DNA of 64,000 bases, taken from assembly GCA_031763025.1 (NCBI GenBank), contig JASSKH010000006.1:2081048-2145047 (forward strand), written 5' to 3'. Shown here piece by piece: positions 1,023 to 54,302 of the stretch (the first letter of the stretch is position 1; each line of letters starts with the position of its first letter). Under the pieces are notes generated by a model that saw only the letters and a list, made by a program, of their open reading frames with translations, searched no databases and was not told the origin of the DNA. The position numbers and the translations under genes were made by a program. Source of the stretch: Macrocystis pyrifera (Eukaryota > Sar > Phaeophyceae > Laminariales > Laminariaceae).

Positions 1023-4000
1023 TCAACGGCGGGAGTCGAAGCAGGGGGCGGCGGCCGCGCGGGAGCCCGACGGCGACCTCAGGCGGTACGCAGGCTCCTT
1101 TGCCCCCGCCCCCCCAACCGGCGCCGGCGCGATGGTAGCGGAGGTTACCGCCGCGGCCGCAGCCGCAGTCACCGCAGCCGGGGACCCCGGCTGCGCCGAG
1201 CTAGCCGTTACCGGCAACCCACCGCCCGCGCGCGGGGTGTGCACCCCTCCCGCCCTCAGTTTCGTGGACCAGGGAGACTGCGAAGCTTCCGCCGAACGCG
1301 GAGAATTGGCCGACAACGTGGCCCTCTCGGCTGCTCTCTGGGGGGATGACGGCGACGACTGGGCGGGGGGCGGTGCGGCTCCTACGGTCACCGAGGAGAC
1401 CGGGGCTGAGGGGTCTAACGCCATCGCGGCCATGGCAGCCGACGGAGAGTTCGGCATCGGTGCTGCAACCGACAACGAGTTCGCGGTCGAGACGCCCCCC
1501 GTTTTCTCCGCCAAAGCGGCCGCGCGGGCAGCCACGCGCGAAGGAGACGACGGCCCTGGGGAGGAAGCCCCTCTGGGAGACTGCGGAGAGGTGGCCCTCG
1601 TAGGAACGGCGGCCTTGGGGGAGGGTGTCTTGGCTGGGGACGCGGTTTTGGCTGGAGAGAAGGCGTTTTTGACTAGGGATGGCACGCCAAACTGGGAACC
1701 CGTCTTCACCGAGGAGACGGCGGGAGAGCCGGCGTTTGGAGAGGACGTGGATTTGGCGGCGGCAGCAGCCCGTGCCGAGGCTAGGGTTGTGGTTGGACGG
1801 CCTAAGCGGGTAGCAGCCGGGGTCGGCGACGACGCGACCGCGGGGGGCGCGTTGGCGGTCGGGGTAGGTTTGGTGGGGGTGGCTACCTGCGATTTCCCCG
1901 TCCTAGCGTCAGTCAGAGCCCCGCTGATTTTGGCGGCTATTGCGGTGGGTTTCAAGGAAGACGCCTCTTTGGCAAGATCTGCCTCTCCTGGCTTGCGTCC
2001 TCCGAGATCGGTCGCCTCCGCGTTCGCCTTGGCCGACGTCAGCAACCACGCGATCAGGTCCATGGCTCCCGCCTGTGAAAATCGTTGAAACGGCAAGTCA
2101 GGGTAAGGCAGGGCAAGGCAAGGCAAGACAAGGCAAGGTGAGGCGCGATACATGAGCGGAATTTTGTCAACGACAGGCGGAAAAATGGTGAGCTGAAGCT
2201 CCCACACTTAAGTTGGAAGGGAAACATAGGGCTTGTTTCCGACTCCGCCGTCGGGCGAGCGGTTATACCACGCAAATTAAAGCAGAAAAAAAAACTGCCG
2301 CGCGAAAGGTCAAGGCCAAATTAACTCAAGTGCTATATGCAGAACAGAATCTAAGCTTTGAACAGGACGCTTACAGTTTGATAGGACATGACCAAAGTGA
2401 AACGTCCAACATCCCAACCCGTGCTCCACCGGCCTCCACGACTGCGTGTTCTGCTTTCTGACTTGCCGAACGAAGTCTAACGTCAATGATAACAGAAACA
2501 CCTGGGTCCAAGAAAGGGTGACATGGCAAGACTGCGGTTGTGCCCCTATGCCAATGTGAGGTAAACCGTACTTCGCTTCTAGCGACCAAAGCAAAGACAG
2601 GCACGCACGCGCGCAGTGTAACCGTCTCGAAGTGCGAAACGCCCAAACACAACGCTCGTAGTAGAAACACGATTGCGAACACGAAGCCATTGCCTTTGTC
2701 CCCCTCCCTCCTCTGAGAAATAAAGAAAAGGACGGGCCCTCTCATTCCCTGTGCAAAATCCAAGGCCCGCCATGCCGTTCATCGCTAACTCATTGTCGTC
2801 GCGCGTGTGTTTAGCCCCCCCCCCCCGAAAAATCTTTGAGAACTAGGGATCACAGGAAAGATTTGGAGAATGATGAAGAAAAGACGGAATGTGCGAGAAG
2901 TGCTGCGATGCTGGACGGGGAAATATCGATTAAAAGTATATCAACACTATACAGGAGTTGAATAAGGATGTGCGTTATCACCTAATCTATTCAAGATGCC
3001 AGGTACCGGTATATATTAACGATCTCATAGCAGTGGAAGCAGCAAAGCAGGGAGTGACGGTGGGGGGGGGAGATACGGTGTCTGGATTGATGTTTGCGAA
3101 TGGCTTCGTGGGGATATCAGAAACACCCGCAAGATTGCAGAAGTAAATAGACAAGGCCGTAGAATATATTAGGAAATGGAGGGTGACGGCCAACGACAAG
3201 AAGTGCGCAGTAATTGTACGTAACGAAGATAAGGTGAACACGGTAAATTTCAGTTGCAAACGGGTACAAGATTGATCGCCGATCGTAGATCGGTATACGG
3301 ACCTTGGCGTAGAGCTCTCAGGATACACGCTCAGCAAAAGTAATAGGACAGGGTAGCACACGTAGGCAAGATGGATGCGATCACAACAGACTCCCACCTT
3401 GACACCAGGATCAAGAGATGTATCCTGATGAATGTGATAGTACCAAAGCTAGAATATGCAGAAGAAGAATGGGAAGGGAACGCGAACTTCTTAAAACACT
3501 TGGGAGCAGCACAGATAACAGCAGCTAAAAAATACTACCAGGTATTTTACAGTAAAACGCTCTGGTACGACTAGTTATACAGTTAGTACTAAGAGCAGAA
3601 CTGGGAATGCACCCAATCAAGACAAATAGAGACGCGAGAAAGTTGAAATGGCAACATCAAGGAACTTGCCAAAACAGAAGTTACCAGTGATAGTTTATAG
3701 AGCTGTGTAGGAGAAAGTAACTAAATAGCCAGCTGGAATAAGGTGGGATAGCGTAGTAAAGAAAGTTTGGAAGGATATAGAAGGAAACCAACAGGAGATG
3801 GTGTTCGGGAGGCACAAGGTAGAAGTAGAATAAAGGATAGACAAAAGGGAAATGCTAGCGCCAAGAAACAAGGTGAAATCGGAGAAAAACACTTGCTATT
3901 AATAGGTGAGATATACACGGCGCTTCGCTCCGCGGGCGGCCTACGCCGCCTGCTATGCTCGCTCAGGAAGGAAAATTACATCAAATTATGCGAAGCGGGC

Positions 4001-7000
4001 AGAGGTCCATGATTGAATATTGTTTTTTTTAATTGTTGTAGTTGCAAACTGGCGACTTGATAATGCCAAGAGTCCCGCCGCCATGCTTCAGGAGAAAACA
4101 GCTCGGACGCCACATACGCTTCGCGTCGCGGGCGGTTTTCCGCTACGCTCTCGCTCACATGTCGTACGTACGTACATACCCCAGGTAGGGTACTTATTTG
4201 CTTCTTTCGATATGCTGTGTCTGTATTCGTATCTACGAAAGATAATAAACCACAGCACGGCACAGCAACACAACAAAAACAATGAAAATGAAACCGAAAT
4301 TTTCTGAAAGCAAAAAAATCCCCGTACCCTTTCGTGTAATAATTTACTACCTGATTGGAACACCTTACACCGGTCAAAACAAAAAACAAAAAAATCGAAT
4401 AGCAGAGCTTCTCTCGCAGCCTCGTACGCCGCCCGCCCCTCTCGCGACCATCTCGCTACCGATTCGGTCCAGCTAAAGCTTTCCCCCCCCTCTCTTCCAC
4501 AGTGAACCCCGTCGCCCGCCTCGCGTGAAGCCCGGTGCTCACCGTGGACCTTGTTCGCCAGCTCGACAATGTTGGTGCTCAGACTGGGTTTAATTTTCAG
4601 CCCGGTCGCAAAAATAAGCACCGCTTGAATATTATCTTACAATCCCGGACGACCCTTAAATACTCGTAGGTACTCTATAAAAAATCACAAATGGAGGCCA
4701 GACAGAGCCTGTTGATGCATCCCACGTGTCTCGAGGCACACGCGACGCCTGGGCACGAAAGCGGCGACCGCGCTCCGTGCAACTCCCCCTCTACCCGCCA
4801 GCACCCGCTGACACCCGCGATGGTGCCGGGTTCGCCCACGGCGCCGTGCTCGGAGTACACGCACGCACACGAAACGAAAGAAGAAAAAAGGAAAGACGGA
4901 CTGAAAGCACGAAGAGAAAAGGAGAAAACAAAGACCCGCTGGAAAGGTCCGGCAAGTAATAAAAAGAGGCGATTTCCAACTGGGAGCTCTGAGAGGCCAG
5001 GGATGTACCAACCGAGCACGCTCAGAGAGTGAGAGGTCTAAGTAAGTAGTTCTATACGGGGGAATAAGTGAAGGGGTAGGAGTGAAAACGTAGTTTGCAC
5101 GGCCCAATGGACTTCGTGAAAACGCTGAAACTGCGATTTCGTGTAGGTGAACTGGACCTGACAGAAATAGTAAAGAGGTATACCAGTAGCCGGGAGGAAG
5201 ACCTAGATGCATAGATGTGCCCGTGTGGCAATACAATAGAGAGTAAAACTCACATAGTAGGACAATGTGAAATATACAAGGGGGAACGGCATGTGTCAGA
5301 AGAGGAGACGAGGGAATTAGAGGAATACGACATGGAGGAGTTTGGTACACTAGATAGTAGGGAGAGAACTACAGTATCACCATCCTAGAAGATAGATGGT
5401 GGCCACAGGCGGCGAAACAGGAAGGAGATAAGACTAGCAAAAAGTTACTATGTAACGTATGGAAACAACGTAATGAGCGCCCGAAAGTTGGGAGTCTCTC
5501 TATTAGGAGTAGGAACGTTGCTCCGTCTCGAAAGGGATGCGTGGTCAATGGTCACATGAATAAGGCAAGCAACGGATGAGTACGCCCCCCCCCCTCCCCG
5601 CGCTCTCCGTACAAAACAAAAAACAGCGTCCACGCCCCTTTGCTCACCTTCTCCCTGGTCTGGCCCGCGATGCAAGCGCGGTGAAGCGGCGAGTGCCCCG
5701 AGGGTCCGTCCTTGGCGTTAACGTCGACGCCTGCCTGGCTCACTAGGAACTGCGCCACAGGCTTGTGGCAATGCTCGCACGCGAAGAAGAAAGCCGTACG
5801 TTCATCCTGGAGTGACAGTCGGAGGGGTCACAGGACGAGAAAGTCAAAATTACCCCGAGCGTCGATCCTTCCATGTTCCTGTTGAGGGTCGTTGTTTTTG
5901 GTGGCGCGGACTGAGACATTAACACTATCAATAGCGTGCGAACATGCTCCACCGGAGCGTCGATTATTTCGTGTTGTGTCTGCACAACGATCATTTCGCC
6001 CGTGACCTTCAAGAGAGTAACAGTCACGCCTTGGCAGCGGCAACGGCAATTTTGCCAGAGGGACCCTGACAGTCCCGTGGCCGAAGCGAAGGCATGAACG
6101 CAAGATCTTGAACTACTGTAAGCGTGACTGACTCGTCTCAACCTGCTTTGCGTTCGTCCTCCCCATCTCATGCTTTTCTTTGAAACGTCACAACACAAAA
6201 ACAACACTAATATAAATATAACCAGCACGTACTATTTATAGTTCACACCACGATCATTAATGCTAGTACGAGGGTTACCTTGCCGCGACGCGGTGTGCCA
6301 TCACAGCTAAAATCGACATATCGAGCCCTCGCGTCGACACCGAGACCAATAGCCGGAACGCCGTAGACCTCGAGGACACAAAGGCACAAAACGTCCACCG
6401 ACTACAACTTGTCCTCTTCAGAGTCAGACCAAAATCGTGGACGCCGAGCGTGCTTCACACGGCGATTTCAGCGGGCTAGCCGCTCTCTTGAGTGCTACCA
6501 CGAAACGATGAGCGTCATGCTCAAAAACATACATTGCCACGTCTTGGTGAGGAGAATCCCGCCAAAAACGCCCAGGGTGTTCTGCCACTGAGGCTAGGTT
6601 GCGTACGGGGGACTGGGTGGTCCCGGCGTACTGCTGTACCTCCACCTCAGATGCCAAATGGTTTCTTTTCGGACACCTTCCTACCGATCCAAACTGATAC
6701 GTGACTGGAAACGCCTCTATATCTCTATACTCCGTGCTGCGGAACAGCATTGGTCGCTATGAACGAACACCAAGGTTCCTCTCATGCAGCCGAAAATGAA
6801 ACGTGCTCAAAAGCTGTATGCTACGTGGCAGCTGGTGCGCTTGACCTATAGACCAAACCATTGCGTGGACATTCCGTCTTGTCTCCTGCACGATACACCT
6901 GCTCTATAATTCACAAAGATATGTCCTCCTTCCCGCTCTCTCTACCTTGCAGCACAAAGCCAGATCGTAAGTCTACATTGTCGCCGTCCAAAATATAGTG

Positions 7001-19300: not shown

Positions 19301-22300
19301 CAGGAGTGGGTAGCAAGAAACGGTAACTCTACAGGGCGTAACGCACGTCGTGCGGATGGCGTTGTTTTAGAACGGCTCGTCTAGAACTTGGTTCTGTGCC
19401 AACCCCGACCAGCATGTTTGAAAGACCGCTCCAACGTACTACCGACGTTGATAAGTCCTCGCCAAGTCAGTTTGGTTGTCCCGGTATGGACGTAATTGAC
19501 ACGGAGCGTGTGAGCAAATGGGCAACAGGAGGAGGAGGAAGGAGGCGTGAGGTTGTACTGGTCGCTTAGGATCATAGCTACCAGTGTCTATGGTCTGATA
19601 GCCTTGTCTTGTTACCCTTTCTGTAGTCCTGTCTGTTTTTTAGCGGCATTGGGTCGAGGAGGTATCTCCTACAGCTGTTATAAACGGTGTGTAGGTTGTA
19701 AACCTCAGATACATCTCAGTCTACGTCGATACGTTTCCTAGTGTAATCGACTGGACTGCGATCTCCACCTCTTAATGTGCAATCTCAATTTTTCTAAACC
19801 TTGACTTCTCTCCCGTTTCTCTCATTTCCGTTTCATGGCGTTCTTAGGACGAGTGCATCGATGTGCTCGGCGCCTCCAAGGGACACGGTACCGAGGGCGT
19901 TATCACGCGTTGGGGCGTGACCCGTCTTCCCAGGAAGACCCACCGTGGTCTGCGCAAGGTTGCTTGCATCGGCGCGTGGCACCCTGCACGCGTGAGCTTC
20001 TCGGTCGCCCGCGCGGGTCAGCACGGATACCACCACCGTACCGAGGTGAGGGTGTGAGGTTGTTGGGTTGTTGGTAGTATTGGTGGCGTTCTACACCATC
20101 GTTAAACGTATCACTTTTTGTGTCAAACGTTGTGTGGACAAACGGAGTCGTTTTTCTCACCATTTTTTATTGTCGTTGTGAGGTCCGTTGACGTGTCTCT
20201 TCGAAAAGATTGCGGGTCGGAAGTCCATACCATGATGAATCCGATCCTTTGTGGGGGTGACACCAACCCTTTTCGCATGGCAGTCCCGTTTTGGGGTCTA
20301 ACCAGTCAAATTCTTTGCCGTTTGTCCCCGAAACGTGACTGCAGTCCTTGAAGGGTGAAACGAAGAGGTGTCGCTTTGTACAGCACAGCAATGTAAATAA
20401 GCCAATGGATGTGAGATGACTTAACAAGAACATGAAACTCAATTTTAAAGGCCACTAAGAAATTTGCATCAAGAAATTGCACTCAGCGGCCAGCGCGACA
20501 CGAATTCCTAAATGATAGGCTATACACGCCGCTTCGCTCAGCGGGCGGCCTACGCCGCCCGCTACGCCTGCTCAGGAAGGAAAACCACATCAAATTACGC
20601 GAAGCGGACAGAGGTCCATGATTGAATATAGTTTTTATATTATTATTGTAGTTGCAAACTGGCGACTTGATAAGGCCAAGTCCCGCCGCCATGCTTGAGG
20701 AGAAAACAGCTTGGACGCCACATACGCGTCGCGGGCGGTTCGCTCACATGCCGTAAGCACCGCTAAAACAATTAAAACATGAAACCGAAATTTCGGGGAA
20801 ATAAAAGATCACTGTCCCCTCTCGTGTAATAATTTCCTGCCTGATTGGAACACCTTACACGGGTCAAAAAGAAAAAAATCAAATAGCAGAGCTTTTTTCT
20901 CAACCTCGTACACCGCTCGTCCCTCTCGCGACCACCAAGCCACCGATTCGGTCCGGGTAAAGCTTTCCTCCCTTTCTGCCACGGTGAACCCCGTCGCCCT
21001 CGTCGCATGAAACCCGGTGCTCACCGTGGCTCTCGTTCGCCAGCTCGACAAAGTTGGTGCTCAGACTGTGTGTCGCTCTCTCTGTGATTTTCAGTGTCGT
21101 CGCAAAAATAAGCACCGCTTGATTTTATTTTGCATATCAAAAACGACCCTTGTATACCCGTACATGGTATAACCGGAACCACACCAAGAGGCCAGACAGA
21201 TCCCATTCATGCTTCCCTCGTGTCTCCAGGCACACGCGACGCCTAGGCACGAAAACGGGGATGGCACTCCTTTCAACCCCCCGTCTACCCGCCAGCACCC
21301 GCTGATACCCGCGACGGCGCCGGGATCCCTCGCGGTGCAGTGCTCCGAGTACACGCACGCACGCGAAGCGAAATAAGAAAAAATGAACAACGAACCGAAA
21401 GTGCCAAGAGAAAAAATGAAAACAAAGACCCGCTGGAAAGGTCCGGCAAGTAATAAAAGGAGACGATTCCCATGTGGGAGCTCTGAGAGGCCAGGGATGC
21501 ACCAACCGAGCACGCTCAGAGAGTGAGATATCTACAAGTAGTTCTATGCTGAAGGTTGTTCAAGAATTGAGTCGCAGTAATATTCTTGCTCATATTAGGT
21601 GTTGTTGATGGCGGGCCCATACTGTAGGTTCGCCAATGTCGTCATCTGAAATTCCACCGTTTCTAAGCACGCCCCTACCCCCGCTGCACTGCATGCCCTT
21701 TTGCACGCTCCTCTGTACTCCCTTGTGACGATCGATCTTCAGATGAATAAGAAGATCTACCGCATCGGTAAGAAGGGAGACGTCGGGTCTGCTTCCACGG
21801 AGGCCGATTTGACCGTGAAGCACATCACCCCCCTCGGAGGCTTCCCCCACTACGGCGAGGTACGACCTTAACCAGTCACGAACCTTGTTTGTTTTGTGAC
21901 TAACTAATTTTCACTTTTCGTAGTCATTCTACTGCTTGTCGAAGATTGGTATGACCTCTTTTTCATGTTTTGGATGGCGTGTAGTTTTGAGGAGGGATTG
22001 TTGGTCCCTTTTCTACAACCCTATATACACGTCCACACACCCCTCGCTATGGGTTTGTGTCTTGAACACCCCTTGCCGGTATTGTTTTCAGCACCACGTA
22101 ACTCTCTGGACGTTCCATCACGTCCATATCACTTTTCTGGGTGGAATTATATTTGGGTGGCAGCTTCACGAGGCGCGGCTCCCGTATACCGTGGGAGTTG
22201 CGCCTTTTGGGTTTCGTGAAAGCCTTCGGGTGGGATCGAAACCCGCTGCCTAGATCAAACGCAAAACCAGCTTTACACACTCACCGAGCCGGAGCTTCTG

Positions 22301-26300: not shown

Positions 26301-27317
26301 GTATCGAAAATCGAAACGGAAAATCGAAAATGAAACTAAACAAGACGCTGATTGGTCCCATGGCCCAAACATGTTCCCCTTCGTTTTTTAGTTTGCAAGG
26401 AAATAAACAATTTGCAACCCATTGCCAAAATAAACAAATTGACGACCCGAAATCGAAAAGCAAATCGAAAACACGAACGGCAACAATTCAGCGTGTCCTA
26501 CTGGTTTGCGCAGCCACTTCAAAGTAAAATCAGCACCGCCGTACACAACAGTCAACGCTCAACCCACAACTACAGTAGCACGGGAACACCAGCCCACCCG
26601 TTTTCGGGCCTTTGTTTCCCGGCGTTCGAGCCAAAGCGAACATACTGTAGTTTGAGGAAAATTCAGGATGATGCCCTCGAGAACGAGGTGGGACGTTCGT
26701 TCAAGGTATATATAGTTGAAAGTTTGATCCCGGGGCGTCAACATTGGACGTGCCACCAACTCCATGGGAGGCCCAAAGACCTCCCGGGATCGAATTGTCG
26801 TCGCGTTTGCCTGCTTTGTGTGGTGGGTCTACGTTACCGAGCGCTAGGTTGTTTGCGGACCAACGCCCAGATGGGTAGGGTGACTCGTGTACTGAGTCAA
26901 GCTGGGGAGACTATTGAGAGGTTTCAGTGGGTTCAACTCCTACACTACCTGAGTCGGGAGAGATGAAATCTAGACTCCCTCAGGTGCCTACATCCTCGGA
27001 GTAAACCACACTTTGATGACGGCACGGTCAGAGACAGGCCCGACTAAGGTGGAAGAAACGAACCGGGTTCGAACCGGTACACGAAAACTTGAGAAACAAG
27101 TGTGGACAGGGGTTTCCTCTCGCTCTTCGGGGAGCTAAAAAAAAAAGTTGTCGGCATGTGTGAACAGTTTTTGAACGGCCCGTAGGTTGTACTCTCCGTT
27201 GTTTTTTACCTGGGTTTCTATTTTTGTATTTCGATTTTGTTTGTACACCTCGTCTAAAATACTCTCGAAAACGAAGGCAGATTTTCGACTTCGATTTTTT
27301 ATTGTGTTTGGACACGC

Positions 27318-28262
27318 CCTGAGCGGGCTCGGTCGGTACATTTCTGGCCTCTCAGAGCTCCCCACTTGAACACCGCCTCCTTCTATTCCTCCTTGTATTA
27401 CTTGCCGGCGGGAGCCCTATTTTGTTTTGTGTGCGTGCGTGTACCCAGAGCATGGTAGCGCGAGCGAGCGTAGCGCTATCGCGGGTGTCAGCGGGCGCTG
27501 GCGGGTAGTGGAGAGGGTGGACGGAGCGCGGTCGCCGTTTTCGTGGCTAGGCGTCGCGTCTCCATCGAAACACAAGGAAAGCATGAATGGGTTCTGTCTG
27601 GCCTCTTGATGTTGAGTTGAAAATAATATGTACGAGTCTATAAGGGCCGTTTCGATTTGCCAAAGAATATTCAAGCGGTGCTTATCTTTCCGAGCCAGCT
27701 GAAGTTCAGAGGGAGAGAACTGGACAGACTGAGCACCAACATGGTCGAGCTGGCGAACGAGGGCCACGGTGAGCACCGGGCTTCACGCGAGGCGGGCGAC
27801 GGGTCTCACTGGGGCAGAGAGGGAGTGAAGCTTTACCTGGACCGAATCGGTGGCAAGGTGGTCGCGAGAGGGCGGGCAGCGTGCAAGACTGAGAGAAGCT
27901 CTGTTGTTCGATTTTTTGTTTCGACCCGCGCAAAGTGCTCCAATCAGGCGGGATACAATTGCATCAGAGGGGACGGGGATTTGGTTTATTTTTCAGGTTT
28001 TCGTTTTCATTTTCGTTGTATTTGCGGTGCTGTGCCGTGTTGTGCTTTATCTTGCGTGTACACATCGACAATAAGTATGTACATACTCGTACATGCATGC
28101 GGCTTCCGGATTGTTTTGCCTGGATGGAGCATGGAGCTCTTGTCATTTGCAAGTCGCCTGTTGGCACCATTTTCTTACACCATCTGTTTTGTTCCATTCT
28201 TCCTGAGAGCGTGGCGGGCGGAACCACCCGCTTGCGCGAAGAGCCTTGTAAAGCCTGCACGT
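27318..28262 (-). mobile_element. 1.1-kb hairpin-ended element, copy 5, reversed and diverged
   Basis: This is an inverted copy. The right-end block GGCCTCTCAGAGCTCCC is at 27350 and internal blocks follow in reverse order. The hairpin end GCGGGCGG-AACC-ACCCGC, then GCGCGAAGAGCCTTGTA, is at 28215-28255. It is more diverged than copies 1, 3 and 4, so probably older. Confidence 0.6.
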
Positions 28263-33800: not shown

Positions 33801-36747
33801 TAGTTTCGAGGCCTCCACGAGGAGCATTTCAGCCTGCCCCCCCCGCTTGGACAAAGTGGTTGATAGTGCACGCGAAATCCTCATCACGGGTGCATTCCGA
33901 GAACGTTCCGAGAACTTTCCTATGGCGGCCGGCGTTAGGGTGTTGAGTTATAGGGTTATTTTTCCATTTCAACCATGTAGAAGGGGACGCTATAATAGCA
34001 CCCTCAGGAGTACGTCAAGTACCCGCGCTTATGCGATTCGGCAACAACTACATACGACTTGGAGTTTGAGTGAGGGATTTGCAACCAGGATCCCTGTGTT
34101 GTAGGTTTAGAATAATAGTTGATGCAAATATACAAGAATCCTGAGCTTTTTAGCCCTTTTTCGCTCTTTTTTGGGCCCAATAACTTTCTAGCCATCGTGG
34201 GAACGTAGTTTTTCCTGCCGCAGCATCTTCACCGACTTCGCAAGAGATAGATCATCCGCCTGAGCGACAGCAATCTTTTTGTGAAGGCCACTTCTTCATC
34301 GGTGATTTAGCCGTTGTGCTATGCTCCTTTGCGTGAAATGAAGCATTTTAGCGTTTTTGCACGCTTTTCGTGCTACGTACTCACTCGCAATTTCGAATAC
34401 ACGAAAGCATCTCGTGAGTCGTTTCTCGCTGCCTACGACTGCCGTCTGGCGCATCCGACGCCCTCACACACCAAATCAGGAGCATCCCTCAATTTCGCGG
34501 GCTGTAGCTTTTCCTGCGAGGAGCTGTACGAAGCTGTCCGCAAGTGAAGTGCAAACGTTCAGTTGGGGGTTGTATTCCGTCTCGTTTTGTGCACCCCAAA
34601 TTTCGACCAATTTCGACCACTGCGGGTCCATGTGTAGGCCTCTGTTGAGAACCTGCGGGAGATCAATCTCGAGAGAAACATAAGCTGCCGTGATGAACCT
34701 CTTTCGAGTCACCGTCGCTCTCCGGTAAGCACGAACCAGCCGAACTTCTAAACGCGGTGTGTTAAACTAGCGATGTGCTTTTTCCGTTCCGATAAAACAT
34801 TTAAGAGATTCGAGAGATCGGAAACCCGGGGACCAGGAGACGCTTGGGTGCCAACGTGGCCTTAAGGGTTGGTCTACTGGTAGTAAAGTATGCGAGGAGG
34901 ACACGCACACCTCGCGCCTGCCTATTGTGTAGGCCGATGTTTTACGTATGATATACAAGGCGCTTCGCTCCGCGGGCGCTTCGCTCCGCGGGCGGCCTAC
35001 GCCGCCCGCTACGCTCACTCAGGAAGGAAAAGTACATCAAATTATGCGAAGGGGACAGAGGTCCATGATTGAATAAAGTTTTTTTTCATGATTGATTGTA
35101 GTTGCAAACTGGCGACTTGACAATGTCAAAGACTTCCGCCGCCATGCTTCAGGAGAACACAGCTCGGACGCCACATACGCTTCGCGTCGCGGGCGGTTTT
35201 CCGCTACGCTCGCTCACATGTCGTACGTACGTACATCCCCCAGGTAGGGTACTTATTTTCTTCCTTCGATATGCTCTATGTCTGTACTCGTATGTACGAA
35301 AGATAAAGCACAGCACGGCACAGCAGCACCGCAAAAACAATGAAAATGAAACCGAAAATTTCGGAAAGTAAAAAAATCCCCGTCCCCTCTCGTGTAATAA
35401 TTTCCTACCTGATTGGAACACCTTACACCGGTCAAAAAGAAAAAAAGAAAGAAATTAAACAGGAGAGCTTCTCTCGCAGCCTCGTACGCCGCCCGCCCCT
35501 CTCGCGGCGACCTCGCCACCGATTCGGTCCGGGCAAAGCTTCCCTCACTCTCTGCCACGGTGAGCACCGTCGCCCGCCTCGCGTGAAGCCCGGTGCTCAC
35601 CGTGGCCGTCGTTCGCCAGCTCGAAATTGTTGGTACTCAGACGGCGTACCTCTCTCTTTGAGCTTCAAGCCCGGTCGCAAAAATAAGCACCGCTTGAATC
35701 TTTTCTTGCAATCCCGAGCGACCCTTATAAACTCGTAGATACTCTATCAGAAACCTCAAATGGAGGCCAGACAGAGCCCATTCATGCTTCCCTCGTGTCT
35801 CGAGGCACACGCGACGCCTAGCCACGAAAACGGCGACCGCGCTCCCTGCAACCCCCTCTCTACCCGCCACCATCCGCCGACACCCGCGACGGCGCTGGGC
35901 TCGCCCGCGGTGCCGTGCTCCGAGTACACGCACGCACACGAGACGAAAGAAGAAAAAGCAAAGAAGGACTGAAAGGTACAAGAGAAATGGAGAAAACAAA
36001 GGACCGCTGGAAAGGTCCGGCAAGTAATAATAGGAGGCGATTCCAAGTGGCAGCTCTGAGAGGCCAGGGATGTACCAACCGAGCACGCTCAGAGAGTGAG
36101 ATATCTGTAAGTAGTTCTATATATTATGCTTGTGTTTCGGCCCCAACAGCAATACAGCAAATACAACAGTACAGCAATCCGGCAGTACATCGTTGGCGTG
36201 CTAGGCGACCGTGGAGCGATGAAGACCCGAACAACCGCCTCGATTTGGTACCAGTATCCGGCCGGTCGCCCTTAGATCTTGACATTTGATTGATTATTTG
36301 ATTGCTTGGTTGGTTGATTTATCGATTGGTTGGTTGATTGACTGATCAATTGGTTGGATGAATTATGTTGATTGGGTGATGGGTTGGTTGGTTGATTGAT
36401 TAATTGATTGATTGATTTGTTGATTAACTCTTGATTCATTGAGGGATTGATCGATCGCTTTGTTGATTAATTTGGTTGATTGATCCCTTGCCGCGACTAT
36501 TACACGCGTCCCCCCTCGACTACTGTATCACATGACATCATGATCCCGACCCCCGTTGCGTGTGATGCAACCGGTCTTTTAGCAGCGGCCGTCGGCGGCG
36601 CGGTCCTTGGACAACAGCATGGACCTTATGGACGGCGTTCTCATGGGGGGAGAGAAGGGGGGCATCGGGGGCGAGAAACACATGACACACCGGGAGTGGA
36701 CCAAGGAACCGTTCCCCGACGACTTCGACGATTCTGACCTCGAGTGA
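30818..36747 (+). CDS. unrecognised gene, three 3' exons, acidic C-terminus
   Basis: Proposed exons are 30818 (or 30829)-30997, 33321-33427 and 36586-36747. The first follows a long CT-rich tract ending CACGGCAG and includes GSAAPLFFAENDDRTFWAKE. It ends in phase 1 before GTGAGT. The second begins with two bases completing that codon (IDVDRELSFDASSRGFGEEG) and ends phase 0 before GTACAT. The last starts phase 0 after TTTTAGCAG, includes RSLDNSMDLMDGVLMGGEKG, and ends EWTKEPFPDDFDDSDLE and a stop at 36745-36747. The two phase matches support one gene. The 5' exons are not found. The product is basic then acidic and probably disordered; no domain was recognised. The last intron contains a 1.1-kb element. 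Confidence 0.45.
31852..31956. mobile_element. TTACGGGGG MITE
   Basis: The arms TTACGGGGGACCATA and TATGGACCCCCGTAA are intact and flanked by TA on both sides. The middle carries TTGTTAGTAAAAATAGG. Confidence 0.8.
32068..32172. mobile_element. TTACGGGGG MITE (opposite orientation)
   Basis: The arms are intact and TA-flanked. The middle is the reverse complement of the copies at 31852 and 32192 (CCTATTTTTACTAACAAAAT). Confidence 0.8.
32192..32296. mobile_element. TTACGGGGG MITE
   Basis: TTACGGGGGTCCATAGTTAA to the matching right arm, TA-flanked. Only 19 bp separate it from the copy ending at 32172. Confidence 0.8.
32885..33062. repeat. ~40-bp tandem repeat with AGATCTAGATAATG
   Basis: About four units share TCTTATCTGTCCGAAAGATC then TAGATAATGAAATGGACG. 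It lies in an intron, just before the exon at 33321. Confidence 0.7.
34950..36125 (+). mobile_element. 1.1-kb hairpin-ended element, copy 3
   Basis: It starts at ATACAAGGCGCTTCGCTCCG, with the 16-bp GCTTCGCTCCGCGGGC block duplicated here. Then come the intact hairpin, the TTGCAAACTGGCGACTTGA block and the end near GAGATATCTGTAAGTAGTTC. It is close to copies 1 and 4, so probably younger than copy 5. Confidence 0.7.
36287..36482. repeat. (TTGATTGATTGG)n simple repeat
   Basis: About 195 bp of TTGATTGA, TTGGTTGG variants lie 100 bp upstream of the last exon of the unrecognised gene. Confidence 0.85.
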
Positions 36748-41155: not shown

Positions 41156-44100
41156 TCACGCACACGCTTCAACCCCGGCAGCCTTATCAGAGCCAGCCGT
41201 CGCCTCTTTCAGTCTCGGAATCGGCGACCCCACCGCCTCCAACCAGTCATTCGTTCTCGAAAACTGCTGCGGCATTTTTACACCGATTCTCGGGCCCAAG
41301 CTCTCCTCTTCCTCTTCCTCCCCTCTCCTGTCCCCCTGCTTCCCCGTCGCCTCCTCAGACGGCGCCAGTTTTTTTCGCGCATCGGCCTTCTTCTCTTTCG
41401 AATGCGGTCCCCGTGATCCCAAGGTCGACTCAACCTCCTCCTCCGCCTTCTTCTCCTCCTCGTCCTCCTGCACATCCTCCGTCTGTCGTTTGCCCCTACC
41501 CCGTCCCCTGCTTCCACCCTTACCTCTGCGGTCGTTGTTAGAGCCGCCGCCGCCGCCGCCGCCTCCGCCCCTCTCCCCCCCTTCCTCCACTCCCTCCCCC
41601 CCTCCCTCGTCGCTACCATTGCTTACGGCAGCTGCAGCAGCACAAATCTTAGCACGCGCATTCTCTCGCGCAGCGCGATGCGGCCTGGGTGGCCTTAGCT
41701 TCACAGCCTCCTCCTCCTCCTCCTCCTCCTCCTCCCTACAACCACTTTCGACCGAGGCCTCAGATGCTTGGCCCGTCGCCCGCTTCCCCGGCGCCGGCGA
41801 CGCCCGCGCGCGCTTACGTTTACTGGGCGCGGGCACGCTCCCAGTCCCAGGCGTGGTAGCGGCGACAGCGGCATCGGCGGCGGCGGTAGTAGTACCGGGA
41901 GGGGGGGGTGTCCGCCGCCTCCCCGTCACTTCGCTTGGGGTTTCCTTTAGAGTTGGCGGCTTGTTTTTCTGCTGATGTTGCGGCGGGGGCAGGGGTGGCG
42001 GGTTCGGTGTTGGTGGCGTCGCCTGCCGCCGCGGGATTTTTAGGTTTTTTTTCGTGGTGTGCCGGGTTTTGTTGTCGACTTTTTTTCGTGGGGGTCGGTG
42101 TCTGGCCGCCTTCGCTTCTTCGTCTTGCCGTTTTTTTTCTTGACGGCCTCGACTTCGAAGGTGGGCAGCACCGGCGGGTCCTTGGAGAAATACGGGTGGT
42201 CTGGCCAGACGAGGAAAAACAAGGAAAGCGTGCAAGGGAAACAACAAGGAGGCAAGGGAGTAACGAGGGGGTAAGGAACCAATACAACAAAAAAATAAAT
42301 CAAAAAGGAAGCAACAAAATAAAGAAAAATCAGCAAGGAAAAACACAAAACAAGGAAAGCACGCAACGGAACAAAAAAAAACAAGCAGGCCAGGAGGGAG
42401 TAACGGAAAAACTAAAACCACAAAACGATTAAAAAACAGCATGCGACGAGATAAGGAAAGGCCCTGAAGCGTGGGAAAACAAAACAAAGACGCAAGAGGA
42501 CATATCGAAGCGAGGGAGAGTTGTGACAGGCACGGCTAACGCTGACGCCCACCGGAAGGGGGGGGGGCACCACTGCCCAAAAACGTGTTCCTCGTCCAAC
42601 TGGCGTCCAACTGGCACACGAACCACAAGATCACAGGGTTTTTGCTTAAAAACGCATGGGGCAGGGCGGGGCGGGGGGGGGGGGCGGGTACTCGTGCCAT
42701 GCATGGCCGTCCCCGTATGACCACTGACCCTCGCATCCCTACAACGCCGGAACGGAGCACGTCGGGTTTTCACCGACCAGGCAGACATTTCTTGAGCCAA
42801 GCAGGGGGGCCGACCGGGGTAGCTGCACCTCACTCCAGCTCACCCCAACCCCTGCAAGAGCACACCCAACCCCACCCCTCCCCCATGAATCCTGCAAAAA
42901 ATGACGAAAGCACATCCCTCTCCCATGTCACCACGGACCTTTGGTGATCTGCGTGCTCAGCGCTCGGTGCACCATATCCGGGTGGTCCCTCATCTCCTTC
43001 TCGAACTTGTTCTTGAGTTGCTTCTGCGTCCGTTCCCCCTCGAACATCTTCACCATGCGGTCGAAGGACAGGTTGTACATCTGGATACCCTGCACCACGA
43101 CAAAAAAACAAAAACAAAAAACAAAAAATGTGTGGGGTCGGGGAGTTGGGAACGCGGGTGTTCGTTTGCTGCTGCACACTGCTGCGCATTGCCGTCAGGA
43201 TTTCTAGAACCCTATCCTTACTCACAGCTACAGTATGTAGGTATCAAACGTCAACACATATCAAGAAAGCGCGACGGGCTTGGCAGCGGACGAAAACATA
43301 CGCGCACCGCACCCTGTAAAATTTGATGACGTCGTGGGGTTTCCAGCGCATGGGCGTTTCTCGGGTGGTGAAAGAGCTGGCGGATGCCGCCGTCGTTTCG
43401 TCCTCGTCCACCTCCTCTCGATTCTCGTCATCGATGCTGCTTGCTCCTTGCACGATCTGCACATTAGACGCACGGAGAATTACAGATCAGAGGCAGCAGT
43501 AAACAGCGCTCTGCATCTAGGGATCCAAGACCAAGACAAAAAAAACATTAAAAAAAACAAATAAATACTTCTACTGCACCCGCAACGAAGCCTAAATGCA
43601 GGACGGTCCAGCTGCCGGTTGTCGTCAGCAGTGGCACGGTCGATAGGCAGCGGTGTGGCCGTCGACCACCGGCTGTCTGTGGTCAGCAGAGTGGCTGTCT
43701 ATATATCTCAGCAGTGCGAGTGGCGGTAGTCCACAGCAGGTGTGGCTAGCAACAGCAAGCACTCGTGTCTGTCTGTATCTCTCAGCAGTGCGACTGTCGT
43801 AGTCGGCACCCACTGGCTACCGACAGTAACACCGTCAACTACCGACAGCCACACCGCTGACTACCGACGAAAGCCCCTCTTCCCTAGACCCACTACCCAC
43901 CACCGCTGACTACCGACCGCTACCCTTACCACAACCCCCTCTACATACCCAAGCAAGCGCTCTACTAATGAATAACTCGTTGGGGCATATACTCTGGATG
44001 TACCCGAGTATATACCCGGGAACGACAGGAGGGTATATGCTTCGGATATACCCGGGTATGATAATAAAGGTGTTTACCCGGGTATGGCAGTAGGTTATAT

Positions 44101-46557
44101 ACTCTGGATGTACCCAAGTATATACCCGGGAATGACAGTACGGTACATGCTTCGGATATACCTGGGTATGACAATAATGGTATGGTATCCGGGTACCCCA
44201 GAGTATCTACTCAGTATATAGCCCACTAAACAAACCCTTGGAGTACCGAATACTCACCAGATCGGCGTCATTAACGACGAGCTTTCCGTCCTTGAAGACG
44301 ACCTTCATCGACTGCGTCGGCGGGGGAGGAGCACCGCCTGCCAAGGTGAGAGCGCGCTTCCTGTTCCTTGCGGCGTCGGCGGCCTTGGCGGCCTTCTCCT
44401 TAACGCCGGGGGGGAACAACAACAAAAACAGGCGAAACAAAAAAACAACAAAGCAGGCAGACAAAAAAAAAAACAATAACTATGGTGAGCAACGAACAAA
44501 TGACAGCAGTATAATACGTGAACAAGACGTGGACAAATATCATATTGTACGGGTGTACAAGGCGCTTCGCTCCGCGGGCGGCCTACGCCGCCCGCTACGC
44601 TCGCTCAGGAAGGAAACATCGAATTATGCGAAGCGGACAGAGGTCCATGATTGAATATTGTTTTTCTTATGGCCCCTGTAGTTAGCTGCAAACTGGCGAC
44701 TTGATAATGCCAAGAGTCCCGCCGCCACATGTTTCAGGAGAATACAGCTCGGACGCCACATATGCTTCGTGTCGCGGGCTTTTTTTCCGCTACGCTCGCT
44801 CGCACGTCGTACATACGTACATACAACAGGTAGGGTACTTATTTTCTTCTTTCGATATGCTCTGTGTCTGTGTACTCGTCGTATGTATTGAAAGATAAAG
44901 CACAGAACGGCACAGCAACACAGCAAAAACAACGAAAATGAAACCGAAAAATTCTAAAAGAAATAAAATCCCCGTCCCCTTTCGTGTAATAATTTACTAC
45001 CTGAGTGGAACACCTTACACCAGTCAAAAAAAGAAAACAATGAAAAAAAGGAAAAAATCTTACAGCAGAGCTTCTCTCTCAGCCTCGTACGCCGCCCGCC
45101 CCTCTCGCGACCATCTCGCCACCGATTCAGTCCGGGTAAAGCTTCCCTCCCTCTCTTCCACAGTGAGCCCCGTCGCCCGCCTCGCGTGAAGCCCGGTGCT
45201 CACCGTGGACCTCGACGCAAGCTCGACAATGTTGGTGCTCATTCGGGGTACCTCCCTCTTGTGACTCTCAGCCCGGTCGCAAAAATAAGCACCGCTTGAA
45301 TATTATCTCTCAATCCCGAACGACCCTTAAATACTCGTACGTACTCTATCCAAAATCACAAATGGAGGCCAGACAGAGCCTATTGATGCATCCCTCGTGT
45401 CTCGAGGCACACGCGACGCCTAGGCACGAAAGCGGCGACCGCGCTCCTTGCAACTCCCCCTCTACTCGCCAGCATCCGCTGACACCCGCGACGGTGCCGG
45501 GTTCGCCCGCGCAACCGTGCTCGGAGTACACGCACGCACACGAAACGAAAGAAGAAAAAAGGAAAGAAGGACTGAACGTACGACGAGAAATAAATGGAGA
45601 AAACAAAGACTCGCTGGAACGGTCCGGCAAGTAATAAACGGAGGCGATTCCCAAGTGGGAGCTCTGAGAGGCCAGGGATGTACCAACCGAGCACGCTCAG
45701 AGATCGAGATCTAAGTAAGTATATCTATATACACGTATACACGTGAACAAAAAAAGAAACACAACAAATTTATTTAAATTTATATTTGAGAACCACAACC
45801 AGAACGGAGAATCGAGACCGAATTCACGCATTATACGTAGAAATCTTCACCGGAACTATAATCCGAACATGAATACATACATACGTACTTGTAGTATGTA
45901 TTTTTATATACAATATATATACCTGGTATGTGGAAATGTTTCGCAGGAGAAAAGTTGTAAACTATGAGGAAGGATACGGTTCGGGTTTTACAGCAGTGAC
46001 GTCAACGGCTGCGGTGGATTCACCGCCGACACCCACATACATACTTGGTACACATCTCCGCAGTCGATCGGCCTCTACGAAAAAGTCTTCGGATTTTTCC
46101 AAGTACTTTGAAAACATCCTTAACAGGTGTTCTCTGAAATGTTTCTTGAAATGTTCTTAAAAGTGTCCTTGAAAATTGAAAATGTTCTCTGAAGAAAATG
46201 TCTGCGAAAGAAAAATCCTCGAAACTTCCTCCGTTTACCTTGGCGCCTTTTTCTCGGGGCTTGGGGGGAAGCCTGCTCTTATAGGACGTGCAAAAGTCCG
46301 CGATTTTCATCGTCGATACCTCCTCGGCGGTCAGCTCTTTCTGCAACACAAATATCGTCGAGTCAAAAGGGGGGGAGGGGGGGGGGGGGGGGGGGTGCTC
46401 ACTTGTTGCTTGCCTTAGTCAGTTGACCATTGACCACGCATCCCTTTCCAGGCGGAGCAAGGGGGGGCGGGGGGGGGGGGGGGGGGTGGGTGCTCATTTG
46501 TTGCTTGCTCTAGTCTTAAGACTATTGACCACGCATCCCTTTCGAGACGGAGCAAAG

Positions 46558-46590: not shown

Positions 46591-49474
46591 ATAGGTCATG
46601 GGAGTCGCTATTGTTGCTGTTGCTGTTGCTGTTGTTGACGCAGTTGCCGTTGCTAGGGTTGTCATATTTGCATATCAGCTCGTCGCCAAACCTTATGATG
46701 CACCCGGCACGTCACGGACAGGATTAAGACGCATCTATCGTAGACCTCGGAACACGCATGCGAGGAAGGATACATCTCCAAGTCACGCACGAAAGCTCCC
46801 ACCGGGCTAGACCTCCGGTTTCCTAGAGGTCCTCAGCATGGACCGCGTTGACCCGTCCCCTCAAGACGACTGCGGGTACCTCCAGAATCGACCCGATCAG
46901 GCCCGGTCCTTGCGACCACCTGCGGTGTCTCTCTGAGGGCCTTGACCCTCCTGAGTCTGACAGTTCCTTGCTAAATACACGAAACCACGCTGCTGGGCTC
47001 GCGTCGGCCGCACCGACGGCTGAAAGGGGCCCTCGCTTCGCGACCTCTCGACGGCGACGTCTCCGCGACTTCATCGGCTCTGACGGCGAGCATAGGCACA
47101 ACACTGCTGTACTCGTACCGTTTTCAATCCGTTCTTGCGTCACTCCCCTAGAACGCAATTCGGAGGGGAACCTTGTATACTCCTATTAAAAAATAGGAAT
47201 ATATTGTCACAAGACAGGCGGCCCTAATAATTCTGGAGGGCAAGGCAAAAAAAAAAAAACAGAAAAAAAAAAAATGCGTACCCTCTGGTAGAATTGAATA
47301 AAAAAAAGAAAAAAAAAACATACACACAACTATTACATAGGCACAACACTGCTGTACTCGTACCGTTTTCAATCCGTTCTTGCGTCACTCCCCTAGAACG
47401 CAATTCGGAGGGGAACCTTGTATACTCCTATTAAAAAATAGGAATATATTGTCACAAGACAGGCGGCCCTAATAATTCTGGAGGGCAAGGCAAAAAAAAA
47501 AAAAACAGAAAAAAAAAAAATGCGTACCCTCTGGTAGAATTGAATAAAAAAAAGAAAAAAAAAACATACACACAACTATTACGGGGGACCATAGTAAACG
47601 GGACCAAATTTTGTTGGTAAAAATAGGGAAATATATAGGTTTTTGTGTGTACCGTAGGTCCTGTTTACTATGGCCCTCCGTCATATTAACAAAGAGAAGA
47701 ATATAAGATACCAGGTACAGCAGTACCGTACGTATGCACAACTGAAACAAGTATTCTCAATACGTACCAGGCATGTACACATTGTACACACAGCCAAACA
47801 CACGCAATACAACTACGTTACGAAGCCGACCGCGAAAAAAAAGAACGAAGAGAAAGTACAGCAGTCGTAGTCAGCCACCCTGCCCGGCGTATTTCCAGAC
47901 GCTTTGGGGAGGTGGGTCAAACAATGCAGCTTGTACGGGTAACAAATCACCAAAGAGGTACAACGTAATTTTCCGATCTCACAGTTCTCGTTTTTTTTTT
48001 TTGTTTTCGTAATATGCAAGCGAGCGAGCGAGCGAGCCACGTCAATGCAACCGACCACCGGCACTACAACCAACTTAAAACCACACCAGTTTCTCCTTGC
48101 CCTTCCCCTTCTTCTTTCCGCCCACAGCGCCGCCCCCCGCCGCCGCCGCCGCCGCCCCCCCCCCCGCCGCCGTCGCCACCGCTCCCAGGTTCCACCTTGC
48201 CTCCTTGCGAGCCGTCGCCATCCTTGCCCCCCGATCCGGAGCCTTCCGAAAGCTTCTGGTCGATGATGCGGAAAAGCGTCACATGTGCGATATGATGAAC
48301 ATCATCAACATCACCAACAAGCGTGCTACGGCTTTGATGGAGCAACGGTAGACGGCCTCTCCAAGTCAACCACCGCGAAAAAAAAAAAAAAAACTTCTGC
48401 TGCTAATACTACCACTATGTATAATACTGTGATAATAACAATGCTACTTGAAGTACTAATACCGGCACTACTACTCCTGCTCCTCGTACTACCACCACTA
48501 CTACTACTACTACTACTACCACTAAAAAGCTGCCCAGAAAGTAATACCCCAAGGGTTGCAAAAATAACGGTTTTATGATCATACCACCTGACTCCACCCC
48601 CTCCCCCCTCCTCCTCCCTCCCATCCGCTCCCTCCCCCCCCCCCCCCCCCCCGCTCCCCTTCTCTCACCCGCCTTCCACCTCCGCGCTCCTCCTCAACCC
48701 TCTCCCCACCCCCCACCCCCCCCCTCAGGGTTTCCACTATTGTCATACAACCCCCCCCGCCCCCCGCACCCCGTTTATCACCTCTAGCCTAGCATTCACG
48801 CTCGCGGTCCTCAGCGAGCTCCCAGGGGCCGCGAGAAAGCTTGACCCCGGCCGAGGCAAGCTCATCCCTCCTCCACCCACCCCAACCCTCGCCCCGCCCC
48901 CCACCACGGCCCCCAACTTGTGCACGCCCCCTATCCCTGTCGAAAACCCGGGCATCCGGCCAGCAGACGATGATGCCCTGGCAGCCCCGCCCCCTGGCGC
49001 CGCCGCCGCCGCCCCCACCCCTGCTCCGACCATGATCCCTTGCCCCCCCCCCCTTCCTCCTGCGCCTGCTCCTCTTCGAGAGGGGGCAGGCATGGCCGCG
49101 ATCAGGGGACGGGCCGAGGTCCCTCGGCTCGAAGCAGCAGCAGTAGTAGCATTTGCAGTAGCATTAACAGTAGCAATAGCAGCAGCAGCAGAGGAAAAAG
49201 AAGGGGCCGGGGGAACAACCGCGGCTGCGGGACGACCACCGGTGGAAGGACGGGCGGGGGTGGGGAGCGGCGGACCGTCCGTCGGTCTCCGGATGCCGGT
49301 CGGTATTGATCCTCTCGCTAACGCTGTAGCTCCTACTGTTGATGATGTCGGTACTGCTGGTGCTGTGTTTCCGCGAGGTTTCGGGATCGCCTGTCGGGGG
49401 CAGGGGGGAGGGCGAGGAAAGGTGGTGGGGGTGAGGGTGGGCGGGGGGGGGGGGGGCGTGGGGATGGGGGGGAT

Positions 49475-49508
<34 letters not shown>

Positions 49509-52500
49509 CATTTTTGTCATGCATGGCTGTAGTCGTACGACCATAGACCCTCGCGTCCCTAGAATGCCGGGGCGGAGCATGTCGGGTTGTCACCGACCAG
49601 GTAGACATTGCTTGCACCCAAGCGCGAAGCGCCGTGAGGTGTTGGATGAGTGGCACGAAGGGTGAGCTACATCCTCTATTAAAACAGCAAGAGCCGCTTG
49701 TGAGCCAGACTTCCCATGGATGACAGCTTCGAATGAGGTGTACTCAATGTCGTGCATGGTCGTAATCGTACGACCATAGACCCTCGCTCGCATCCCTACA
49801 ATGCCGGGACGGATCACGTCGTGTCAAGGATCAGGCCGACATTGCTTGCGACAGGCGCGAGATAGGTGGGGGGTGCAGCGGGGGGGTACTCATGTGTTGC
49901 TTGCCTTGGCCACTTTACCATTGACCACGCACCCACTTCGAGACGGAACACCGTTTCTACTCCTCAGGAGAGAGGGTCATCGACTGTCGGATAAGGGCAT
50001 ACCAGGTACAGGTCTACCTGGTATCGTACGATGAGTCCTACTTGCACACCGAGTATACGAACAAGACTTGCACACCTCCCACCCCGCTCCCGCTAGACAC
50101 CCTGATCCCACCCCGACCTGATCACCAAACGGCCACAGCAAAGAGCAAAACACGCTTGAGACCAGCATATCAGTGCACCGAGGGTGTGAAGAGCTTAAAA
50201 TGCAGACCTGGTGTGCAAATAGGGTTCCCCGTATTGTACGAGGGGGGGGGGGGGGGGGGGGGGGCAGGGGGGGGGGATGTACTCATGTCATGCATGGCCG
50301 GAGTCGGATGACCATAGACCCTCGCAGTATCCCCGGGGGTAGGGGCTCTCGAGTGCTGTTGTTCTCGAGGCATTGAATGAGAGACGGAACGCTGTGGACA
50401 GCAGTAGGCTGTAGTTCTAATTCTTGAACTCGCTCTCCGAGATAGTGGGGCTGCCGAGACGGAACGCGAAGGAAAGCGCGACGCAGATCGAAAATGTGGA
50501 CAAAACCTCAGACACGAGAGAAACAGAGAACCAGCAGCACAGCAACAGCGTCAACCTCTGCCACTACTGCTGCTGCTGTACGCATGACATGAAGACCACT
50601 ACGACTATTACGGGGGTCCATAGTTAATAGGACCTATGTTATACATTAAAAACTATATATTTGCCTATTTTTTTACTCACACTGCTGTTTGGTCCTATAT
50701 ACTATGGTCCCCCGTAATAATACAATAATACATGACAAACAAAGAAGAATCATAAGCTGGGAGAGCTGCAGTACTCCTCATATGTTAGCACAGGTACCGT
50801 ACCCACAGACTGCTGCTGCTGACAGCAGTGTGCTGGCTGCTGCTGACAGCATTGTGCTCTGTGCTGGCTGCTGGCTGCTGTGCTCTGAGCCCTAGGTTGT
50901 TACGTGAGACACCTCGCACAGATTATCCATGCATGACCTACAAAGTATTACGGGGGACCATAGTAAATGGGACCAGATTTTGTTAGCATAAATAGGTAAA
51001 TATATACCTGGTAGGTTTTTATGTGTATCATAGGTGCTACTTACTATGGTCCTCCGTAATAGTACGTTCGTACCAGGTACATACCCAGGTATCAGGTACT
51101 GCTATACCAGGTACCTGGGAGGCAAATATGTCAGGGGACAGAATTTTCACTTCTTTTCACTCCTTGACAAGACAGCAATGTTGCCTTGACACGTCTTGAG
51201 TGACACCAGGCTACTGAGTTTTAGTGCGGAACACTCGGCCCTACACCATTGACAGCGCACGTTTTGCCTTGGTTGACATGTCTCCTGACATCTTTACTGG
51301 TAGGTGGTTCATCAGAGCGGATGTATTCCTGATCTGTGCCAGGTATGATCTACGATCTACAGCTGTATACCTGGTGGAAAGCTCATGCTGCCGGATGGTA
51401 GCTGTATAACCTGCGTGATCGAGGAACATGTTTCCTGGCTGGTATATGAATTACTGCTGTACGTACACAAATCCTGCTCAACGTGCGCATGACAAATGGC
51501 AGGTTAGGATCTGCAGGTAGATCGTCAATCTGTTTCGTATAGCACACGTGGCCAGGAAAAAAAGCTTTCTCGTACGAATACAGGAGTAGTCGTAATTTGT
51601 CGCTCTTTCGAGCGGAGGCAGGCACGAAATTCCTGTTGTATACCAGGTAGTCTGCGAGTTCAGACAGGGACGATACCCATAACATCAAAGATACAAATCG
51701 TGTGGTTGAAGGTGATACCGGAGAAGCAGCAGCATTGCAGACAGCAGTATATATCGCCAGCTAAACAGCGCAAAAGCTGTGTATGTACCAGGTATGTGCT
51801 AAACACGATTGATCGAGGCGAGGTAAGGCAATACAGCTACTCCAAGCGAAGCAAATCAAGCCGAGAACGAACAACGGCGACGACAACTTCAACCCCAAAC
51901 ACCAACAGCTTGACTAAAGGCTTACCGCACCACCTCCGTCCCCAGGCCTTCCCACACCGCCAGCCCGAGGTGCATCTTGAGCGCCTCCCGGGCCGGATCG
52001 AGCGGCGCCCGGCAGCACCTGGGTCGCCACATGCTGTCCGAAGCCTCGCCCCGGTGCCACCGGTGCCGGTTTGCGTTGCTTTGGGCGAAAGCCGCGGCCG
52101 CGCGGTGGCTTATTGGACGAGCTGGCTCCCCCGCCTCTGCCCACCCCTACGAGGCATACGAGAGGAGGGGAGGATAGAGGGAGAAAGGCAGGGCAAAGAG
52201 AGGGACAGGCCACAGGAAGAACGTTGAGGTACGAGCATGAAGTCCTGGAGTGTCGCCGCAGTTTACTAAAGACGTCATCCAGTGAATGGCATGGAGTGAG
52301 TGAATGTCAGCAGGGAGGGTGGGGCGAGATAAAGACTTGGCAGAGTTGGCGACGTGGACGCTAGGTCCAGGCCGGCGTCAGCGCTGAAGGCTGGGTACGT
52401 GCGTGAGAGACAGGGGGGGAACTTCTCCGCGCTACCGTGTCACCTTCGTCTCCAGCGTGCCTTGGGAAAGCGTCTACAGCCGTCGAATATTCAAACCAAT

Positions 52501-54060: not shown

Positions 54061-54302
54061 GAAAGTCTTGTTCTCCTATTAATGTCACCGGTTGCTATTA
54101 ATAAGCAATTTCTCCACCCACCACAGCTGGTCATACAAACCGCGCATCAACCGGCCTGTGGGACCCTCGATAGCGACAATAACGCTGCTATCAATAGATC
54201 TTTGTTTGGTGTTAGCAACCGTTTACGTACCACGAGTGAGCGCCCGGCAGCAACGATGGTAAGATCGTGCCGCGCCCGTGACGTGCAACTCCTTGCATTG
54301 TG

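Follow-up and report, generated by a model that had tools for sequence, protein, structure and literature searches.

Several described systems share features with the locus reported here. In Ectocarpus, the non-autonomous element RTEX-N1_Ec32 is ~600 bp long and present in more than 6000 copies, and its 3' end is common to the autonomous LINEs RTEX-1_Ec32 and RTEX-2_Ec32, the origin of its 5' region being given as undetermined (PMC12477816). The present pair is like this set in having a LINE and a non-autonomous element with a shared 3' end, a likeness of description, and the main-text passages on the Ectocarpus set make no mention of C tracts, targeting, arrays or minimal copies (PMC12477816). 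In known LINE-SINE pairs the SINE carries the 3' end of the LINE, as it does here (PMC3747384); the present pair differs from them in that the shared end is ~70 nt long and lies almost wholly in the LINE reading frame, and in that both elements adjoin a homopolymer. Insertion into pre-existing simple repeats is known for Dong, which targets (TAA)n, and for TRAS, which targets telomere repeats (PMC2887409). The present pair would likewise use a pre-existing simple-repeat target, but in the form of a dispersed mononucleotide C tract, and one that is shared by a SINE. Lepidopteran RTE elements have an extremely short 3' UTR composed of simple repeats (PMC2887409). A very short 3' UTR and many 3'-end copies beside simple repeats are common to these elements and the present LINE, whereas in the lepidopteran elements the repeat is said to lie between the duplications, and so to be a tail (PMC2887409), and here, where readable, it lies within and before them. 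Target-specific lineages have also been described (PMC4640811). Shared LINE-SINE ends, simple-repeat targets, simple-repeat tails and target-specific lineages are therefore known separately in these sources, and a search of a limited literature collection, in which signs such as 'poly(C)' are unsearchable, gave no title or abstract opening that described a LINE-SINE pair with poly(C) as its target.

The window, the whole stretch of DNA that was analysed, comprises 64,000 nucleotides of Macrocystis pyrifera (positions 2,081,048-2,145,047 of its contig) in a genome of 537,376,219 bases and 223 contigs. Its relevant features are as follows.

2815-2826, plus strand: C12 tract directly before the LINE 5' truncation point.
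2827-5584, plus strand: LINE copy, decayed and 5'-truncated, with reverse transcriptase (RT) pieces in several frames.
2827-3913, plus strand: LINE fragment whose decayed reverse transcriptase matches RVT_1 from about model position 103.
3914-5056, plus strand: another dispersed repeat of ~1.14 kb, which interrupts the LINE and does not belong to the system.
5057-5579, plus strand: C-terminal coding part of the LINE, to the stop TGA 5577-5579.
5578-5584, plus strand: LINE 3' terminus GAGTACG, overlapping the stop codon.
5585-5594, plus strand: C10 tract at the LINE 3' junction.
42688-42802, minus strand: SINE 3'-end copy.
46391-46460, minus strand: short LINE 3'-end copy with C runs on both sides, in an array with 46490-46557.
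46490-46557, minus strand: short LINE 3'-end copy with C31 (46559-46589) before it.
49475-49737, minus strand: SINE in a LINE-SINE-SINE array, followed by C31, its own end degenerate (AAAATGAC).
49735-49880, minus strand: SINE in the LINE-SINE-SINE array.
49882-49990, minus strand: LINE 3'-end copy, first of the LINE-SINE-SINE array, with no 5' C run.
50252-50326, minus strand: SINE 3'-end copy.
53521-54046, plus strand: full-length SINE with C runs at 53510-53520 and 54047-54057 and an extra ATCTCTCCTATCGAGTACA end.
55979-56279, minus strand: SINE copy in C-rich surroundings.
56960-57032, minus strand: SINE 3'-end copy, in an array with 57041-57551.
57041-57551, minus strand: near full-length SINE.
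59667-59849, plus strand: C117, GCCCC, a 9-nt LINE end ATGAGTACG (59789-59797) and C52, a minimal copy inside a C tract.
60441-60465, plus strand: C17 AAATGGGT, 5' copy of a target duplication.
60466-60563, plus strand: LINE-end/SINE-end chimera with terminal GAGTACA.
60564-60578, plus strand: CCCCCCCAAATGGGT, 3' copy of the target duplication.
62991-63065, minus strand: LINE 3'-end copy, last of a LINE-SINE-LINE array.
63068-63293, minus strand: SINE, middle of the LINE-SINE-LINE array.
63308-63382, minus strand: LINE 3'-end copy, first of the LINE-SINE-LINE array.

The window was analysed together with 48 loci (263 kb; ~327 kb with the window), which were fetched around the seed word TGAGTACGCCCCC, so that only non-seed copies test the 3' side. 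Chaining gave 148 stretches of both families, of which 130 reach to within 12 nt of a constant 3' end; most LINE stretches among the 18 without a 3' end are pieces of interrupted copies. Removal of 11 stretches too near a locus edge and of 2 duplicates left 117 copies, window included (61 LINE and 56 SINE). Some 5' junctions in this set are alignment breaks in interrupted LINEs (window 5053, L006, L044), which were retained and weigh against the target reading. Two LINE copies are each present five times in near-identical form (L050, L058, L063, L066 and L067; L051, L057, L059, L064 and L065) on contigs of 35-131 kb, as haplotigs or recent duplications.

The LINE coding end followed by GAGTACG and a C run, as set out in the preliminary description of this DNA, was confirmed at 5577-5594; the coding-end stop placed there at 5576 is present as well, at 5577-5579. 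The joined read-through of the window LINE matches RVT_1 at E=2e-4, which is below the curated cut-off. Its fragment 2827-3913 aligns to a better kept relative (L011), which has a frame of 427-428 aa with RVT_1 at 1.4e-14; against PDB sequences, this RT frame matches 8c8j at 2.1e-7 and R2 proteins at about 0.002. Directly upstream of the L011 RT frame, the decayed copy L049 shows PF14529 at 3.7e-5 (24 bits versus a cut-off of 27.4) and PF03372 at 0.02-0.03, also below the curated cut-off. The reverse transcriptase in L011 and the apurinic-endonuclease-like pieces in L049 thus indicate that the window LINE is a non-LTR retrotransposon, probably of the APE type, with a probable APE-type endonuclease in its relative. 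The C-terminal part of the LINE contains CPCG...H...C, which we take to be a CCHC-like motif; a Pfam search returned no match for it. No A-rich 3' tail was found, and the listed 3' junctions carry C, not A. Four scans of viral contigs revealed no relatives. The ~1.14-kb repeat that lies inside the LINE has a GC-rich start resembling a hairpin, and its ends, close to TATA, are almost constant; copies lie at 3914-5056, 20521-21547, 34975-36121, 44556-45729 and 27313-28166 (minus strand).

The 61 LINE copies are 5'-truncated to different extents, starting at -2403 to -33, and their 5' ends cluster, 28 of them at -58 to -70, close to the limit of the module shared with the SINE. This cluster may reflect a strong stop or the part of the RNA that the enzyme binds; a protected RNA fragment and microhomology with the C tract are also possible origins. 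A separate 63-nt gene as the source of the short copies was considered and rejected; their divergence from the common tail is greater than that of the long copies (median 7 versus 3, n=25 and 23).

The second element, a repeat of ~510 nt (507-nt reference), is 526 nt long at 53521-54046, and 8 of its 56 copies start at -503 to -506 on this reference. We call it a SINE in the wide sense only, without an identified Pol III-type head: a tRNA, 5S or 7SL head was found neither by Rfam, with nothing at gathering scores in the window and nothing at E<=1 for the SINE (53500-54070), nor by ARAGORN, with no tRNA in the window. The preliminary description held this short repeat to be unrelated to the LINE, which does not apply to its tail. 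The last ~70 nt of the SINE align with the last ~70 nt of the LINE with a local score of 69, a value reached by 0 of 1000 dinucleotide shuffles (mean 20.9, maximum 45). The SINE body compared with 3 kb of LINE showed no excess similarity, 5 of 60 shuffles scoring as high. The base after GAGTAC is mostly G in the LINE (48/56) and mostly A in the SINE (30/40). On the LINE side the shared module is almost wholly coding, and one stretch would therefore serve both as protein end and as RNA signal. The LINE used by the SINE is presumably this one, not a close relative of it. One SINE subfamily has GAGTACATCTCYCCYATNGAGTACA as an additional end, which looks like a second addition of the terminus (53521-54046, 55979-56279 on the minus strand, and 60499-60563). 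A shared RNA fold was set aside as evidence: a similar hairpin is formed by most of eight folded LINE and SINE tails, with weak z-scores (0.47 to -1.88); covariation on the named hairpin structure was no greater than in shuffles, and in RNAalifold's own structure one of eight pairs had changes on both sides.

Further LINE ends had been listed in the window as identical to that at 5578. LINE ends do occur at these sites, with exact GAGTAC in three of the seven window LINE 3' ends (5578-5583; 49886-49891, minus strand; 60491-60496) and GAGCAC (two), GAGTAA or GAGTGC in the other four. The one assigned to 60468 lies in fact at 60491-60497 and joins a SINE copy directly (GAGTACGC followed by GAGGGTC), with no C run between. 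The word GAGTACNCCC occurs 9 times in the window versus 0.39 expected, not all nine belonging to the two families. In the whole genome, where the counts cover the LINE end, TGAGTACGCCCCC was found 4,819 times (2368+2451) and its reversed control 6 times (3+3); a LINE-tail pattern free of any C requirement gave 1394+1375 matches, with 0 for the control. From the LINE-tail sites absent from the C-run list, 20 were fetched, and all 20 have a run of C4 or longer no more than 38 nt beyond the fixed CAAC (C5 or longer in 15/20), several ending in GAATAC, GAGAAC or GTGTAC; five of the sites represent one duplicated C4 locus and five another duplicated locus, 8 of the 20 thus being repeats. The proposal that a LINE and a non-autonomous partner have a 3' end in common, beside C runs, is supported by these data, for the LINE end throughout the genome.

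C runs flank most copies on both sides. At the 3' side, a run of at least C5 within 25 nt after GAGTAC was present in 51 of 58 non-seed locus copies (background 4.5%) and a run of at least G5 in 0/58, so that the C run said to follow GAGTAC(R) directly is usual, with some ends and junctions differing. The 5' side, which the preliminary description did not treat, was analysed in the 83 copies with no other copy within 70 nt upstream. In 56 of these a run of at least C5 lies within 25 nt upstream on the same strand (background 4.5%), in 40 it is at least C8, and runs of at least G5 upstream of the 5' junction number 0/83. In the window, where the LINE is preceded by C12 at 2815-2826, 9 of 10 independent insertions have a 5' C run (background 4.0%), the exception being 49990. 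Against the target reading, 27/83 copies have no C run within 25 nt upstream and 23/83 none within 40 nt. Taken as the sign of simple-repeat targeting, a target repeat on both sides with a fixed orientation was found in most copies, not all. Conversely counted, 16 of the 31 window C runs of at least 10 nt have a same-strand copy no more than 25 nt away, two copies having been added by hand. C runs of 171 and 89 nt at 58546-58807 (minus strand) have no detected element copy beside them.

The copies also form head-to-tail mixed arrays, a second feature beyond the preliminary description. Of the 117 copies, 34 lie within 70 nt after another same-strand copy, and an opposite-strand neighbour within this distance was found for 0/117. 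The array junctions comprise 11 LINE to SINE, 10 SINE to LINE, 7 SINE to SINE and 6 LINE to LINE cases, two of the last six (L002, L044) being interrupted single LINEs. At least C4 is present in 28 of the 34 array gaps, and two internal junctions have 1-2 C at most, reading GC in 60498 and AC then C in 49737. Very short copies were revealed by the pattern C10-N(0-15)-GAGTACG-C6, which gave 62 rows from 21 sites, with 4 rows for the reversed form. In the 20 of these 21 sites that were fetched, an exact LINE terminus of 7 to 22 nt stands between C tracts, C28-GAGTACG-C28 (L073) among them; some of the 7-10-nt matches run on into ends of SINE type. The loci and window together (327 kb) yielded 4 minimal copies with GAGTAC, compared with none for eight altered cores.

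Target duplications, where readable, bear on where the C run belongs. Exact duplications of at least 8 nt were found in 7 of the 117 copies versus 1.35% in mismatched pairs, and are unreadable in most copies. The check proposed earlier was whether such duplications (X) enclose the C run; in four of the seven it stands directly before the 5' X (window 60441, L007, L039 and L044), and in two (L026 and L022) it lies 3-7 nt before it. In the seventh, L032, the target has only CCC, and the 3' side exceeds this by one C at most. The clearest case, at 60441-60578, reads C17, AAATGGGT, LINE end and SINE end, C7 and again AAATGGGT. L041 and the shorter L037, recognised by eye and then checked, also have the order C(n)-X-element-C(m)-X. 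Since the C run precedes the 5' X in most readable duplications, the tract was part of the target in those cases and largely pre-existing, which speaks against the earlier view of the C run as a carried 3' tail. A looser duplication score exceeded control by a factor of about two to three, and one of its five highest-scoring cases is almost all C; this score is weak and was not relied on. An apparent triple duplication at L027 was discounted, CTCCG being part of the element itself, and candidate duplications at L082 and L083 were set aside for being too short or too rich in C.

The reading that we favour, with a probability of about 0.68, is that the LINE-SINE pair is primed at C tracts and that the C run is mainly a landing site, not a carried tail. 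One enzyme would insert both the LINE and the ~510-nt SINE into C runs, with the C strand as sense strand, after binding the shared 3' module of their RNAs. It would nick the G strand inside the C tract or at its edge, and cDNA synthesis would start at the RNA terminus GAGTAC(G/A) from a G-ended primer, presumably held by G:C pairing, in target-primed reverse transcription. The other strand would be cut some 5-11 nt past the tract, so that part of the tract and those bases would be duplicated. Premature stops would leave ends as short as 7 nt. Because an insertion would keep a C tract at its 3' side, a new LINE or SINE could land in the same tract, producing the head-to-tail mixed arrays.

An alternative that we regard as unlikely is a hybrid, in which C tracts are the preferred target and slippage of the reverse transcriptase adds further C, lengthening the tract and renewing the target. 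The 3' C runs tend to be longer than the 5' runs (median 14 versus 11.5, p=0.056), a 3' run is present in 12 of 14 solo copies that have no 5' run, which also counts against a pure target reading, and tract length differs among the duplicates of one locus (L050, L058, L063, L066, L067). These longer 3' runs and 3' runs without 5' runs suggest C addition during insertion or later slippage, and later replication slippage would give the same picture as the hybrid; moreover, the 3' side has fewer C than the 5' side in the window duplication (7 versus 17) and in L044 (10 versus 14). Some C addition by the reverse transcriptase beside targeting is possible under priming at C tracts as well.

Less probable again is a poly(C) tail, with which the element RNA ends or which the reverse transcriptase adds at a target of no special kind. 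Such a tail would agree with the C run after GAGTAC(R) in 51/58 copies, with the 3' runs of copies that have none upstream and with the tendency of 3' runs to be longer, and there are precedents in RTE-type LINEs that combine a very short 3' UTR with a tail of simple repeats (PMC2887409). A tail does not account for the 56/83 copies that have a C run before the 5' junction, on the C strand only, for duplications with C(n) before the 5' X, for the CCC target of L032 with at most one more C at its 3' side, or for the two internal array junctions with only 1-2 C. That the C runs at both ends were made by the enzyme, as untemplated bases at both cDNA ends, or arose by twin priming is very improbable: 5' homopolymers are known for human L1, where twin priming gives the complementary 5' base, poly(T) against poly(A) (PMC2837659), but here C stands at both ends, G runs are absent (0/83), and readable duplications place C before X, not between X and the element.

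If priming at C tracts is correct, this LINE and SINE, with a compact 3' module and a homopolymer target in common, would offer a clean natural system in which to study how the RNA end and the choice of target are connected in target-primed reverse transcription, and the copies of 7-22 nt would show where the cDNA starts. The C tract may renew itself with each insertion, and the 16 of 31 window C runs that lie near a copy point to a source of long C tracts other than replication slippage alone. A bolder and doubtful extension is that the pair makes its own target: insertions would leave and lengthen a poly(dC)/poly(dG) tract, the enzyme would recognise the homopolymer, possibly through a G-quadruplex or i-motif form and not its sequence, and LINE, SINE and fragments down to 7 nt would share one renewable landing pad. 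If true, this would help to explain the abundance of long C tracts in the genome.

The window also contains sequences of other kinds. A MITE-like short repeat with inverted ends (ATTACGGGGGACCATAGTAAA...) is present at 7931, 28966, 31848, 32064, 32188, 47575, 50944, 60014 and 60688, and 47091-47582 is a near-perfect tandem duplication of 245 bp in two copies. Near 56.9 kb there is a GlyRS-like exon (best PDB match 2.7e-9), with an intron after it apparent by eye.
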